A DNA stretch of 64,000 nt from Arthrobacter gengyunqii (GTDB lineage Bacteria > Actinomycetota > Actinomycetes > Actinomycetales > Micrococcaceae), in assembly GCF_023022985.1 (NCBI RefSeq), contig NZ_CP095461.1, forward strand, positions 1,302,001-1,366,000, read 5' to 3'. Shown piece after piece: positions 21,909-26,853 of this stretch. Position 1 is the stretch's first letter. Each line of letters begins with the position of its first letter. Below the pieces are notes generated by a model, which was not told the origin of the DNA, did not search any database, and saw nothing but the letters and a program-made list of their open reading frames with translations. The translations under genes and the position numbers were made by a program.

Positions 21909-22298
21909 TCAGCGGCCGCCCTTGGCGAGGTAGTCCGCGCCGTCATAGTGGACGTGGAGGGTATCGATGCGCCCAGCCCCGTCGAAGGTGAAAAACTCCG
22001 CGAACCGCACGTTTCCGCCAGGCATGGCGGCATCGTAGAGTACTGCCGACGATGACTCGTCGTGAACCTCCCGGAGAATGTCGAGGCCTTCCACAGTTGC
22101 GATGAAGCCGCTGACTCCCTGCAAGAAGCCCTCAGTGGCATCCGGACGGTGGCCGGCCATGGCGCCGGTGAAGTCAAGCCGCTCGGACAGGAGAGGGCGC
22201 AGGGTGCTTCCGTCGCCAAAGGCCTCCGGCCCCTCGGACATGATGCGGTAATACTCGTGCAGTGCCGGCGGTGCCGAGGGGGCGAGATTTCCGTCCAT
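21909..22298 (-). CDS. NTF2/SnoaL-like fold protein
   Basis: The ATG at 22298 follows AAGGAAG and gives 129 residues. The pattern HEYYRIMSEGPEAFGDGSTL, LDFTGAMAGHRPDATEGFLQ and VRFAEFFTFDGAGRIDTLHV fits nuclear-transport-factor-2-like proteins: a cone-shaped fold with a small ligand pocket. The likely role is a small-molecule isomerase or cyclase-like function, but substrate and pathway are unknown. It lies alone between pheT and the polysaccharide operon, 133 bases after the GH114 gene end. Confidence 0.7.
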   Translation of the reverse strand: MDGNLAPSAPPALHEYYRIMSEGPEAFGDGSTLRPLLSERLDFTGAMAGHRPDATEGFLQGVSGFIATVEGLDILREVHDESSSAVLYDAAMPGGNVRFAEFFTFDGAGRIDTLHVHYDGADYLAKGGR

Positions 22299-22431
22299 GA
22301 TTGCTTCCTTGTCTGGGCGCAGGCGGTCCGTCCGGTCCGCCACCCACGTTTTCCGGGGTCAGCATAAGTGTGGCAGCGGAGGGCGGGTCACGAACAGTGA
22401 TCCGGAAGTATCTCCTTGAGGGAAATGCCGC

Positions 22432-23271
22432 TCAGCAGGAGGACCTGGCCGGCCCAAGATCCAGCGGTTTCAGCATGGAGGACAGGCCGATCCGCCGGGA
22501 CTCGGCGCAAAAGTCCAGCGACCCTTGGTATTCGACGTGCAGAACGGCCTTCCCCTCGTCGGCAAAGGGCTTGTATGCCTCACATTCCCCGTACCGAAAA
22601 CACTCCTCATTGACGGCAAAATCAAAGTCATCCACCAGTTCGGGAATCTGGTCGATGTCGTTCTTCAAGCCCACCGACAATCCGCGGGCATGGGCCAGTT
22701 CTGCAACGGCCCGGTTGTAGGCCAACTGGTCATCCGCCTTCAGCGGGAAGCCCGTCTCATTGACATAGCCGTCAACATTGTCCGGTTCCACGGCATCGAA
22801 TCCCTTCGCCGCGCAGGTATCCATGCGTGCTGCCATGATCGGCAGGAGAACGTCCATCCGGCGGATGTCCAGCCACCGCTCATCCGGCCAGCCATCCAGG
22901 GTGTTCCCCAGGACCGCTTCCGGAAACAGGCCCGCGTCCCCCCGGAAGTCCTCCCAGGAACCAACCGACAAATAGCAGATCGAGCGCCTGCCTTCAGTGT
23001 TCAACGCGAGTATGTCCGCTGGCGTTGTTGTCTCGTAGTCCACGTCGTAGATGTCAGCGTCCACCGACAGATCAAGGGCACCACTGAGCTGCCACTGCCA
23101 GGTGAGGGCCGGAGCAGGTATCCACCGTGCGGAATCCGCCTTCGTCCGCGCTTCCGGGATGGCCCCTGCTGCGCCGTCAGGGGCCGGTGCGCACGCGCCC
23201 AGGGAGAAGAGGAGGAACACTGCGGTCACCACAGCGACAAGGCGGTCCCTGGCACCGGGGCGTCCTTTCAC
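22432..23271 (-). CDS. GH114 endo-alpha-1,4-polygalactosaminidase-like lipoprotein
   Basis: The product is 279 residues. An N-terminal signal ends in the lipobox LFSLGAC, so Cys27 would be lipidated and the enzyme anchored outside the membrane. The GH114 barrel shows WQWQLSGALDL (about 58-68), YDVDYE, RSICYLSVGSWEDFR (about 96-110), GFDAVEPDNVDGY (157-169; Glu162, Asp164), GLKNDIDQIPELVDDFDFAV and NEEC (221-224). The family cleaves alpha-1,4-linked galactosamine chains. The GTG start overlaps the stop of the spherulin-4 gene by four bases (GTGA). It is the last gene of the four-gene operon. Confidence 0.9.
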   Translation of the reverse strand: MKGRPGARDRLVAVVTAVFLLFSLGACAPAPDGAAGAIPEARTKADSARWIPAPALTWQWQLSGALDLSVDADIYDVDYETTTPADILALNTEGRRSICYLSVGSWEDFRGDAGLFPEAVLGNTLDGWPDERWLDIRRMDVLLPIMAARMDTCAAKGFDAVEPDNVDGYVNETGFPLKADDQLAYNRAVAELAHARGLSVGLKNDIDQIPELVDDFDFAVNEECFRYGECEAYKPFADEGKAVLHVEYQGSLDFCAESRRIGLSSMLKPLDLGPARSSC

Positions 23272-23987
23272 CGGCGGACCGCATCACGCCGGGCAGCGAG
23301 ACGCCGGGCACCTCGATGACCGGCAACCAAGTGCTCCGAAACAGCGGTGGGGGTCCCGCGCCAGGGATTGGGCAGGGAGCGGTCGGTGGCAAAGACATGC
23401 CCTGCGCCGTGGCTTCCTGCGGCAAGGCGGACGACGGCGATCTCTCCGGGGCTGCAGTCGTACACCAGATGCCACATCCGCGCCGGCGGCACGTCGCGCG
23501 CCCATGCAGGCTGCGCAAACTCCGCGTACGACCCGGCCGTGCCCTCAAAAACTGCCGTGACGTCGAACAGATCCATGTGCGCCAGCGTGGGAAAGCGGCC
23601 GGGGTTGGCTGCCAGAAACTTGATTCCTGCGTTTCGTGCCGCTGCGGCGTACTGAGCGCAGCGGGCCAGGCTTTGCGGAACGGAGGGAAGCTCATCGAGC
23701 ATGATTCCGTCGAGCCCGTACAACCTTTGCCAGGAATGAATATCCCGGGCTACGTCCGCCACGGGCCGGTTTCCGTAGTCGACCCGTACGTAGCCAAGGA
23801 GCTGTATGCGCGGCCGCAGTTCCGCCACGGCGGCGGGATAGTACTCATCGTCGTCGCTTCCCGGCCCGTCGTGGACGTTGAGAACGGCAAAGGATATCTT
23901 TCGGCGCTGAGCGGCCAACCAGGACCATTCCTGCGGAGCCTCGGCAGGATGGACATACCAGGGAACAGCGGTCTGTGCTTTTCTCAC
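23268..23987 (-). CDS. Spherulation-specific family 4 (GH135-like) glycoside hydrolase
   Basis: The GTG at 23987 overlaps the stop of the membrane-protein gene (GTGA) and gives 239 residues. The spherulin-4 barrel is clear: TAVPWYVHPAE (7-16), FAVLNVHDGPG, LGYVRVDYGNRP (64-75), GIMLDELPS with Asp98/Glu99, and TAVFEGTAGSYAEF with Glu148. These match the catalytic acids of Sph3, the fungal galactosaminogalactan hydrolase. No signal peptide or membrane helix is visible, unlike fungal Sph3, so a cytoplasmic or non-classically placed enzyme is implied unless the start lies elsewhere. The C-terminus is Arg-rich. Confidence 0.85.
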   Translation of the reverse strand: MRKAQTAVPWYVHPAEAPQEWSWLAAQRRKISFAVLNVHDGPGSDDDEYYPAAVAELRPRIQLLGYVRVDYGNRPVADVARDIHSWQRLYGLDGIMLDELPSVPQSLARCAQYAAAARNAGIKFLAANPGRFPTLAHMDLFDVTAVFEGTAGSYAEFAQPAWARDVPPARMWHLVYDCSPGEIAVVRLAAGSHGAGHVFATDRSLPNPWRGTPTAVSEHLVAGHRGARRLAARRDAVRR

Positions 23988-25315
23988 GCGTACGTCCTCG
24001 GATCGGAAACGCGCATCAGCAGCACGCCGATGCCGGCGACCAGGAAGGCCATGGCTACGAGTATGCCAGCTGCGTTTCCCCCTGTTATCCAGGCTTCCGA
24101 AGAAAGAAACGCGGCACCGGCAAAAACGACTCCGCTGCCAGGCAGCCCGAACGCCGCCAGTGTGGTGGACGTCGTGGCCAGGGAGCTGAAGGCGGCAGCC
24201 ACCAGCACAGTGGCGGCAACCCGGGTGTCCCCGACCAGGAAAATGACCACAAGGGCGGAAACGGAAGCCGATATGACAACTATCGCCGCGGACATTGCCA
24301 TGGTGAGCGAGCGTGCATTCCGGGCTGCGTGCCGCAGCAGCGGTGTTCGGTTGGAGGACCAGACAAGCCGCTGGCGCATGAGCACCAGGGCCGGATCCGT
24401 GGCAGCCGCGGCGATGACTGTCGCGACCACGAGCGCTTTTCCTTCCCAAGCCGGCATCCGGGTCAGAGCCACCGATAGGGCGGCGGCAAGGAAGGATGCC
24501 TGGGCTGCCGGTGCGACGGCAGCCAGCCAGTTTCCGCGTCCGAACAAGCGGCGGTCGCTGCTCGTCCGGAGGTGCGTCACCAAGGCCAGCGTGACTGCGG
24601 CCAGCACCAGAACGGCAACGGACACAACGATGGGCAGGGCAGCGGAGTGACCGAGGACCAGCGTCAAGGCGGCAATCGTGACAGCAACGGACAGGATGGT
24701 CAGCAGGTACCATGAACGGCCGAGGATCACGAGCATGGAGACGACGCAGGAATACCAGCACCAGGCCATCAGGAGGCCCGCCCAGCTTCCGTCCTGACCG
24801 GGAATGACCAGTGACACCGCCATGTAACAAGCCAGAACGAGCATGACGACGATGGTTGCGCCGGTTCCGCGGGCGATTCCGCGGTTCACCTGGCCTGCGC
24901 CGGCGTGTGCCCAGACAATTCCCGATATCGATTGTCCGATGATCCAGGCACCAATGCCGGCAACCAGGACTTCCCGGGTGTTGGCTGCCATTACCGTGGC
25001 GGTGAGGCCGCCCAGAAAAGCACCTAAAACCAGGACAATGCCGCGCCTGACGGCCTCCAGCAGCGCATCCCGGGAAATCCAGGACTCCGAGGGGCCGGAA
25101 ACCTGGGCTGCGGAACGTACTTGAACAAGGGATTGTGCGTAGTCAAAAACATCCTTGGCCCCGTGGCGTTTCCGTGCAGTGCGGTCGCTGATCCCGGATG
25201 CCTCCAGGCGGGCGGTAATCTCGTACACATCAACGGCATCGAACCCTGCGTGCTCGTTCTCAAAAACCGCCACAGGCTTTCCCTTTCCATGCACCGCAAC
25301 GCTGTCCGCGCTCAT
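23984..25315 (-). CDS. Polytopic membrane protein of the PelF operon
   Basis: The ATG at 25315 overlaps the PelF stop (ATGA). The product is 443 residues. Residues 1-90 are soluble and contain DVYEITARLEASGISDRTA with a following GAKDVFDYA, a predicted helical motif. The rest is about eleven or twelve transmembrane helices beginning at RRGIVLVLGAFLGGLTATVM. Position suggests it takes the place of PelG, the flippase-like partner of PelF, or of the membrane part of fungal Gt4C; sequence similarity to PelG is not obvious by eye. It probably carries the polymer across the membrane. The role is inferred. Confidence 0.8.
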   Translation of the reverse strand: MSADSVAVHGKGKPVAVFENEHAGFDAVDVYEITARLEASGISDRTARKRHGAKDVFDYAQSLVQVRSAAQVSGPSESWISRDALLEAVRRGIVLVLGAFLGGLTATVMAANTREVLVAGIGAWIIGQSISGIVWAHAGAGQVNRGIARGTGATIVVMLVLACYMAVSLVIPGQDGSWAGLLMAWCWYSCVVSMLVILGRSWYLLTILSVAVTIAALTLVLGHSAALPIVVSVAVLVLAAVTLALVTHLRTSSDRRLFGRGNWLAAVAPAAQASFLAAALSVALTRMPAWEGKALVVATVIAAAATDPALVLMRQRLVWSSNRTPLLRHAARNARSLTMAMSAAIVVISASVSALVVIFLVGDTRVAATVLVAAAFSSLATTSTTLAAFGLPGSGVVFAGAAFLSSEAWITGGNAAGILVAMAFLVAGIGVLLMRVSDPRTYA

Positions 25316-26853
25316 GCCGACAACCTCAGTTCAGCTGCGCCGGCACCCATCGGAACCGACGGTGCCAGCAACGGCACGGGAGGCACCAGGATGGCAGGGC
25401 TTTGTCGCCGCCGGAGCAATCTGCCGTCACGGGCCGCAGCATAGGCCTCCCGATAGCTCGTTAGGCATTTTTCGAGTGTGAACTCGGAGAGCGCACGCTT
25501 CCGTGCCGCCGTCCCCATGGACGCCCTGAGCTCCGGGTTGGTGAGAAGGGCCACACAGGCATCCGCAAAAGCAACGTGATCCCGGGCGGCAACCAGCATG
25601 CCCGTTGTCTGCTGTTCGTCCAGGCATTCGGCCACACCTCCGACATCAGTATTGACCGTGGCGCGGCCGCACATCATCGCTTCGATCAGCGTGAACGGCA
25701 GGCCTTCTGAAACGCTGGACAGCGCTACTACGTGGCCGGCCTCGATGGCAGGCCGGCTGCCTTTGCTGGGCCCCTCCCAATGGACTGCCTCGGCTACCCC
25801 GAGGGCGTTGGCCATCGCAACCAGCAGATCTTTGTAAGCTGCGTTCTCTTTGGGGGTCGGCCCGAAGACGCGCAGTTGGGCATTGGGCACCTGCTCACGA
25901 ACCAGCGCGAAAGCGGATATCAGCGTTTCCAGGTCCTTGAGGGGATCGATGCGTCCCACGAAGCTGATGGTTGGCAGATCCGGTTCACTGGTAACGGGCA
26001 GAAAGGTCAACGGATCGACGCCGTTGGGAATGGTGTGGATACGGTCCGGAAGGGCGCCCAGCCTGCGCTCCCAGCGGGCATTGAACTGGTTCAAGGGAAG
26101 GACCATGTGTGACTGCACATTGACCACTTGGCACAGCCGCCGCAGGAATGCGGTCACTGCGCGCCGCACCGGCCAGGACAAATGGGCCCCATAGAGCGCA
26201 AGGTAGCGTTCGCGCAGATAAACGCCGTGCTCCGTCAAGAGAATCGGAGTGCCGTGCCGCCAGGACTGGGCCAGGGCCAGCAGTGACGAGGGGCCGTTGC
26301 TTGAGGCATGGACTACGTCGACGTTGCCAAGCCGGTGGTCGACGAGCGCGAGAGCCCGGTCCACGATGCTGGCAGCCATGACCGCGTCTGCGACCGAGAT
26401 GGGAGGTTCGCCGGTGCTGACCACATGCTGTGTCCAAGCTGCGATGATGGGTGCCACGGATCCACGGGTCGCGAGTGAGTGGGCCAATCCCACACGGTCA
26501 CTAATGCCAACGAGGTGCTGCAGGGCGTTTGCGGTTCGCCCCACCGGGTCATGCTGCTCCGATCCCAGGGCCGCGTCCCACAGCCGGGTCAGTTCATACT
26601 GAGTTGAGTCGATCCACCTCCGGCGCCGGGGGTGGGGGCGAAGCGGAGAGGCAGCGGGTCCCCAGACCGGAATCAGTCGAACTGCCTGGACATTCGGGGG
26701 TACCTTCCAGACGGGTTTGTCGGCCCCGCTGCCGGTCAAGGCGACGATATCGAAGTCGTGCTCCGGAATGCCGGTCAGGAGCTGATCGCACCACGTGCTG
26801 ACTCCGCCTGTAACGGCCGGGTAGGTTCCCTCAGTGATAAGCGATATTTTCAT
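25312..26853 (-). CDS. pelF: PelF-like GT4 glycosyltransferase
   Basis: The ATG at 26853 follows GAAGGGG and gives 513 residues, close to PelF of Pseudomonas (about 507). The DUF3492 start MKISLITEGTYPAVTGGVST is diagnostic. Next come LTEHGVYLRERYLALYG (about 238-254) and the GT4 domain: HTIPNGVDP, GRIDPLKDLETLISAFA and SEGLPFTLIEAMMCGRATVN with the E-x7-E donor motif. PelF polymerises UDP-linked N-acetylhexosamine (GalNAc/GlcNAc) in the Pel pathway. It is the first gene of a four-gene overlapping operon. The C-terminal 50 residues are an extra Pro/Ala tail. Confidence 0.9.
   Translation of the reverse strand: MKISLITEGTYPAVTGGVSTWCDQLLTGIPEHDFDIVALTGSGADKPVWKVPPNVQAVRLIPVWGPAASPLRPHPRRRRWIDSTQYELTRLWDAALGSEQHDPVGRTANALQHLVGISDRVGLAHSLATRGSVAPIIAAWTQHVVSTGEPPISVADAVMAASIVDRALALVDHRLGNVDVVHASSNGPSSLLALAQSWRHGTPILLTEHGVYLRERYLALYGAHLSWPVRRAVTAFLRRLCQVVNVQSHMVLPLNQFNARWERRLGALPDRIHTIPNGVDPLTFLPVTSEPDLPTISFVGRIDPLKDLETLISAFALVREQVPNAQLRVFGPTPKENAAYKDLLVAMANALGVAEAVHWEGPSKGSRPAIEAGHVVALSSVSEGLPFTLIEAMMCGRATVNTDVGGVAECLDEQQTTGMLVAARDHVAFADACVALLTNPELRASMGTAARKRALSEFTLEKCLTSYREAYAAARDGRLLRRRQSPAILVPPVPLLAPSVPMGAGAAELRLSA

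Follow-up and report, generated by a model that had tools for sequence, protein, structure and literature searches.

The window analysed here, a 64,000-nucleotide stretch of the soil bacterium Arthrobacter gengyunqii (NZ_CP095461.1), carries on its minus strand at 22432-26853 a block of four genes, in which neighbors share 4-base overlaps (ATGA, GTGA, and GTGA). They encode a PelF-like GT4 glycosyltransferase (GT), a multi-helix membrane protein, a GH135 hydrolase, and a GH114 hydrolase. We propose with moderate confidence that this block belongs to the actinobacterial operons for exopolysaccharides resembling Pel and galactosaminogalactan (GAG), as a reduced member without CE18, and that it works by the full mechanism set out below. 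Judged from its genes, its function is most likely the synthesis and export of a largely acetylated alpha-1,4 polymer of the N-acetylgalactosamine (GalNAc) type. We class it as a CE18-free variant, and not as a full Agd3-type member, because an Agd3-like (CE18) deacetylase gene is absent. New here are the assignment of the membrane protein to a predicted MOP fold, natural fusions among its relatives, a leaderless GH135, and the CE18-free lineage; the operon class itself was already predicted. In the literature searched, with preprints and most subscription papers outside it, neither the MOP assignment nor a cytosolic GH135 nor a CE18-free lineage had been described. The features of the block are as follows.

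25312..26853, minus strand: PelF-like GT4 glycosyltransferase, 513 residues, predicted polymerase; ATG start, DUF3492 plus GT4, NCBIfam PelF
23984..25315, minus strand: membrane protein, 443 residues, 12 helices, predicted MOP-fold exporter; overlaps the GT gene by ATGA
25112..25243, minus strand: conserved helical stretch near the N-terminus of the membrane protein (about residues 25-68), with E38, G41, and F57 invariant among aligned relatives
24005..25072, minus strand: twelve predicted membrane helices of the membrane protein, residues 82-437, from the structure model
23268..23987, minus strand: GH135 (Spherulin4), 239 residues, no export signal; PF12138, Sph3 match, GTGA overlap
23694..23696, minus strand: putative catalytic Asp98 of GH135, aligned to Sph3, role taken from the family
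23544..23546, minus strand: putative catalytic Glu148 of GH135, aligned to Sph3
22432..23271, minus strand: GH114 (Ega3-like), 279 residues, probable lipoprotein; PF03537, Ega3 match, GTGA overlap
22780..22782, minus strand: putative catalytic Asp164 of GH114, aligned with Ega3
22606..22608, minus strand: putative catalytic Glu222 of GH114, aligned with Ega3

Family Assignments and Linkage of the Four Genes

A sequence-only reading of this DNA had given the positions, the strand, and the three overlaps exactly, and Pfam and NCBIfam bear out its naming of a PelF-like GT4, a GH135, and a GH114 around a membrane protein, which has 12 helices. The GT combines DUF3492 (8.3e-45) with a GT4 domain in Pfam and scores 157.9 bits against the NCBIfam PelF equivalog NF038011, above the cut-off of 100. 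It matches 35 NCBIfam families, and among the 25 displayed, PelF is the sole one for which it exceeds the family's own cut-off; the enzyme is predicted to be a polymerase. A GalE is also encoded in the genome (455 bits). Six of the 29 Arthrobacter genomes, the window's not among them, carry a second PelF-like paralogue of 565-593 residues (L056-L061). In L056 it adjoins a 495-residue membrane protein with no Pfam match and a GHL15 protein (PF14885), and the gene list of L061 shows similar neighbors.

The GH114 protein matches PF03537 (2.1e-84, 282.8 bits, cut-off 27) and the Ega3 structure 6ojb (3e-53), and 92 of 220 residues are identical to Aspergillus fumigatus Ega3 (41.8%); for a GH114 from Fusarium, PMC12054363 gives an identity to Ega3 of 34.9%. 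All 24 aligned rows retain the putative catalytic Asp and Glu of the window protein. The leader contains a lipobox (LGAC), and the protein is a probable lipoprotein; the lipobox pattern was detected in 10 of 16 GH114 genes. The GH135 protein belongs to Spherulin4 (PF12138: 5.7e-31, 108.3 bits, cut-off 30.2) and matches the Sph3 structure 5c5g (2.1e-8), with D98 and E148 aligned to Sph3 and 50 of 152 residues identical (33% over the aligned part). The parts shared with the fungal GAG set, as the sequence-only reading had proposed, are thus recognizable in both hydrolases. All 81 named GH135 domains have the putative catalytic Asp and Glu. In two loci from large genomes of the same class (L051 and L053, whose gene lists show GT, membrane protein, SDR, and GH135 but nothing Agd3-like), the catalytic Glu is replaced by Ala or Ser, so that this GH135 may be a pseudo-enzyme.

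Among 59 genomes searched, the membrane protein occurs in 11, all within the genus (29 genomes). GH135 is found adjacent to it in exactly the same 11, the PelF-like gene adjoins them in 11 of 11, and GH114 is adjacent in 10, lying about 3.5 kb off in G002. The genes of the block are linked in relatives, as the sequence-only reading requires, with the trio kept together in 11 of 29 genomes. Because the trio co-occurs and GH114 also occurs alone, we regard GT, membrane protein, and GH135 as the core and GH114 as separable. GH114 without the trio is seen in 3 of the 29 genomes: in G009 (L062) and G026 (L064) it occupies the pheT-argC site that the block has in the window, and in G016 (L063) it lies elsewhere. 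In a GH114 tree of 33 rows, built by a quick search without bootstrap, the copy in G026 clusters with that of the G008 operon (SH-aLRT 96), which suggests that G026 probably lost the trio and retained GH114. The placement of the block between pheT and argC is right for the window and less general beyond it; pheT and/or argC are visible in the fetched stretches of 9 of the 14 carriers (the window, 7 of the 10 other genus carriers, and 1 of the 3 sister-genus carriers), and 5 of 14 are without them. A small open reading frame at 21909-22343 on the minus strand, between pheT and GH114, has no Pfam match and recurs in L013 (92% identical) and L014 (68%).

The four genes are under purifying selection, with dN/dS of 0.09-0.29 across 20 comparisons with 5 relatives, and a decayed relic can be ruled out on this ground. 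A promoter and terminator scan gave no promoter-like site and a single terminator-like site, located outside the block.

A Predicted MOP-Fold Exporter with Natural Fusions

The membrane protein has no match in Pfam or NCBIfam. Its structure model has a 12-helix MOP fold and matches MATE, WzxE, and MurJ, at 4-13% identity to these rows, so that the "polytopic membrane protein" of the sequence-only reading stands as multi-helix and can now be specified as a predicted MOP-fold exporter. Given this predicted fold, the protein probably fills PelG's role, with no detectable similarity to PelG (hhalign 0.05% against one PelG). Unlike the MOP exporters named above, it has an extra conserved N-terminal segment, whose helices are modelled at residues 30-39, 44-51, and 56-68, ahead of the twelve; E38, G41, and F57 are three of the four invariant columns in 55 aligned relatives. 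For the twelve helices, Lys and Arg together number 13 on the N-terminal side and 4 on the opposite one. The membrane proteins of the Arthrobacter and Streptomyces operons form one family (hhalign 98.1%).

A further difference from MATE, WzxE, and MurJ is that some relatives are naturally fused to GT4. Among 18 long relatives examined, 15 are a GT joined to a membrane part, with the membrane match weak in P0197 and P0198 and partial in P0129, P0189, and P0199; only a GT is visible in P0179. P0196 joins the membrane part to GH135 and P0188 joins it to an epimerase, so that each of these partners is found once, C-terminal to a member of this membrane family. In P0188 the epimerase retains an apparent start of its own, and its joint could be artefactual. 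The pairing of GT and membrane protein is thus seen in both synteny and natural fusions. For P0132, a fusion of GT and membrane part, the structure model is confident (pLDDT 85.2, pTM 0.84), and the GT half lies nearest to GT4 enzymes such as HepE and BshA; GT matches filled this fold search, and for that reason the membrane half was not independently confirmed. A search aimed at the fungal GT4-membrane fusion (Gtb3) returned 41 proteins, none fungal by name and most nameless.

A Leaderless GH135

In the window and in the readable genus relatives, the GH135 domain starts directly, with no hydrophobic leader; automatic gene calling overlooked the GH135 in L016 and put the start of that in L013 at a wrong place. 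Export signals were scored throughout by hydropathy and motif. In the 72 named loci with a membrane protein (described below), the nearest GH135 start precedes the domain by no more than 19 residues, with a median of 0. The automatic leader test flags 4 of the 72 (L077, L130, L084, and L122), of which L077 and L130 were judged to be readings of an overlapping upstream gene. Hydrophobic leaders are present on GH135s in the PelG-type loci L040 and L041 and on the orphan L048; the orphan L126 has a leader as well. Epimerases are normally cytosolic, and the fusion of an epimerase and of a GH135 to the C-terminus of the membrane family, when taken with the missing leader, makes a cytosolic location the simplest reading; the window GH135 is probably cytosolic. 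The sequence-only reading had the block trim its polymer; a GH135 that is probably cytosolic need not do so outside the cell.

A Lineage without CE18

An Agd3-like (CE18) query found nothing in the 29 Arthrobacter genomes, including that of the window, and was positive in 5 of 5 control genomes, one of them the query's own source. The gene is likewise absent from three sister-genus carriers, giving 0 of 14 carriers genome-wide across the two genera; G707, another genome of the family, does carry it. The profile of Agd3-like proteins matches the solved Agd3 structure 6nwz (3.7e-16); taken singly against the Pfam cut-off, L040 lies above it, L050 lies below it, and L042 has no match. The earlier statement that no deacetylase was obvious thus extends, for the Agd3-like type, to all 29 genus genomes.

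In a GT tree, the rows of Arthrobacter and of the sister genus, 13 in all, make up a single clade (SH-aLRT 100) nested in a 16-row group (SH-aLRT 94) that adds Blastococcus and Kocuria, both with Agd3. The tree holds 44 of the 45 rows asked (L106 gave none; L012 was not asked) and comes from a quick search without bootstrap, and several rows near the Arthrobacter clade have long branches. The fewest changes of the Agd3 trait over this tree are three, and the absence of CE18 in Arthrobacter and its sister genus is best explained as one loss. The block is small, as the sequence-only reading had noted in comparing it with known pel loci, and because its closest relatives on the GT tree carry the deacetylase, this small size is probably secondary.

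Comparison with Known Systems

Bacterial operons in which a homologue of Agd3 accompanies a cytoplasmic GT and a multispanning membrane protein were described by Bamford et al. (2020, PMC7229062). GH114 is often included, spherulin-4 is found in some of the actinobacterial examples, and the authors support a bacterial origin of the fungal GAG cluster. The window shares with these operons the GT, the multispanning membrane protein, GH114, and GH135; they have an Agd3-like deacetylase, whereas searches of this genome and the other carriers, 14 in all, gave none. The actinobacterial GAG-like system proposed by the sequence-only reading accordingly fits this class, which was already predicted in that paper. 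In the fungal cluster (Uge3, Gtb3, Agd3, Sph3, and Ega3; A. fumigatus and Neurospora crassa), a GT with a membrane part, GH114, and GH135 are likewise found, but the window has GT and membrane part as separate genes, its block lacks a deacetylase and an epimerase, and its GH135 has neither membrane anchor nor leader.

The Gram-positive pel operon is pelDEADAFG (Whitfield et al. 2020, PMC7112168). The window has in common with it a PelF-family GT and a multi-helix membrane exporter and differs in that the block has no PelADA or Agd3-like gene and no Pfam PelG. PelG (PF16933) was found in 0 of the 29 genus genomes, with a positive control in Thermotoga maritima; for PelD (PF16963), neither the 29 genus genomes nor any control genome gave a match. 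The predicted MOP-fold protein could serve as a marker for operons that PelG searches overlook.

Proposed Mechanism and Alternatives

In the mechanism that we propose, the housekeeping GalE, whose gene is present, would supply UDP-GalNAc and/or UDP-Gal, and the PelF-like GT4 would polymerize the sugars at the inner membrane face, as expected of its family. The MOP-fold protein, as partner of the GT, would export the chain in PelG's role. GH135 on the cytosolic side may cut the nascent acetylated chain, for length setting, release, or clearing of jams, and the GH114 lipoprotein outside may cut or remodel the surface polymer. CE18 is presumed to have been lost in the ancestor that Arthrobacter shares with its sister genus. 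Unless some unrelated deacetylase is at work, the polymer would then probably keep most of its N-acetyl groups and be less cationic than Pel or GAG. Such a lineage would separate polymer synthesis from charge, a natural experiment on an acetylated Pel/GAG-like polymer. In Neurospora, the acetylated polymer of a deacetylase mutant binds particles better than that of the wild type, and adherence to glass is lost (PMC11356417).

A stronger version, which we offer tentatively and think somewhat likelier to fail than to hold, is that GT4, MOP exporter, and GH135 form one synthase complex in which cytosolic cutting is part of synthesis or export, the product in Arthrobacter and the sister genus being an essentially fully N-acetylated GalNAc-type polymer after a single loss of CE18. 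An Aspergillus mutant in GH135 (Sph3) makes no GAG, and why A. fumigatus requires this hydrolase for GAG production is unexplained (review, PMC8647848). Operons of non-pathogens that combine GT4, MOP protein, and GH135, with a hydrolase that is apparently intracellular and once fused to the exporter, make this question directly testable, and if the one-complex version is true, they would be a bacterial test bed for why GAG synthesis in Aspergillus needs Sph3.

Several observations weigh against the mechanism or its stronger version. Fungal evidence on the need for GH135 is mixed: besides the Aspergillus mutant without GAG, deletion of GH135 in Neurospora leaves hyphae adherent like the wild type (PMC11356417). 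Ega3-type GH114 is reported to need a deacetylated polymer (PMC7229062), which is awkward for a deacetylase-free system. The MOP fold does not specify the cargo, since MATE, WzxE, and MurJ all share it. Three operon GH135s from Thermomonosporaceae (L084, L113, and L122; Actinomadura and Actinocorallia) were judged to carry twin-arginine-like leaders, L113 by eye, so GH135 is not intracellular everywhere; this suggests that its location changed in that family. Three named loci (L079, L106, and L126) are without the GT-membrane pair though no contig end intervenes, L079 having a GT, and GH135 stands without a nearby GT or membrane protein in L048 and in L169, L170, L171, and L173, of the same family as the window.

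The strongest alternative keeps the same system but has CE18 replaced by an unrelated deacetylase encoded elsewhere, leaving a polymer that is cationic as in Pel and GAG. Pel systems rely on deacetylases other than Agd3, PelA and PelADA among them, neither of which is known to be a CE18 enzyme. The retention of GH114 with intact putative catalytic residues also speaks for a replacement, Ega3 being reported as specific for deacetylated GAG (PMC7229062). Against it stand the 14 carriers without an Agd3-like gene, a count made with no search for other deacetylase families, and we consider a replacement unlikely, if a serious contender.

Less probable still is that the block serves a lipid-linked wall glycopolymer, of teichuronic type or another wall glycan, which the GT and the MOP protein would assemble and flip and the hydrolases remodel, and that no Pel/GAG-like exopolysaccharide is secreted. 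Two of the fold matches, WzxE and MurJ, are indeed flippases of lipid-linked sugars, and GT4 enzymes serve many pathways, as the 35 matching NCBIfam families illustrate, but PelF is the best of these matches and above its cut-off, and an Agd3-like gene is added in most relatives. Moreover, both hydrolase families have endo-galactosaminidase activity on GAG (PMC12054363, which treats GH114, GH135, GH166, and GH191 as endo-galactosaminidase families).

A foraging or competition block, whose hydrolases would be aimed at the galactosamine polymers of fungi or of other actinobacteria while GT and membrane protein have some different use, would suit the three lone GH114 genes, the G026 copy descending from operon copies on the tree, and the orphan GH135s with a leader (L048 and L126), but it is improbable given a window GH135 without a leader, a trio kept or missing together across 29 genomes, and natural fusions that tie GH135 and GT to the membrane protein.

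Wider Actinobacterial Loci

Across the phylum, 11 of 396 genomes, the window's own included, carry GH135, at 18 places. A related GT lies within the stretch in 13 of the 16 non-window places fetched (16 of 17, G238:C4 being left out). The named GH135 loci are the best 80 of at least 534 relatives, mostly from Streptomyces, with Blastococcus, Dermacoccus, Kocuria, Propioniciclava, Granulicoccus, Actinomadura, Lentzea, and others also represented. At score thresholds of our own choice, GT is present in 70 of the 80, the membrane protein in 72, both in 69, both with an Agd3-like gene in 64, and GH114 in 60; PelG is found in 0 of 80 with a profile built from one sequence. Of the 11 loci without the GT-membrane pair, 8 have less than 4.5 kb before the match (contig end). 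The pair occurs with no Agd3 in L065, L066, and L067 (all Arthrobacter), L086, and L141, of which L065 begins at a contig end and L086 also lies at one; for L051 and L053, the lack of an Agd3-like gene was scored from the gene list, not by profile. Many Streptomyces operons also carry two SDR-type genes and a nucleotidyltransferase.

G707 has six GH135 matches, and of the two stretches fetched (L171 and L172), one is an Agd3-GT-membrane-GH135 operon and the other an isolated GH135. L040 and L041, from distant members of the phylum, are mixed loci. L040 encodes a GAF/GGDEF protein, a TPR protein, a PelF-like GT, PelG (PF16933, 463.6 bits), and an Agd3-type deacetylase, with its leader-bearing GH135 on the other strand.

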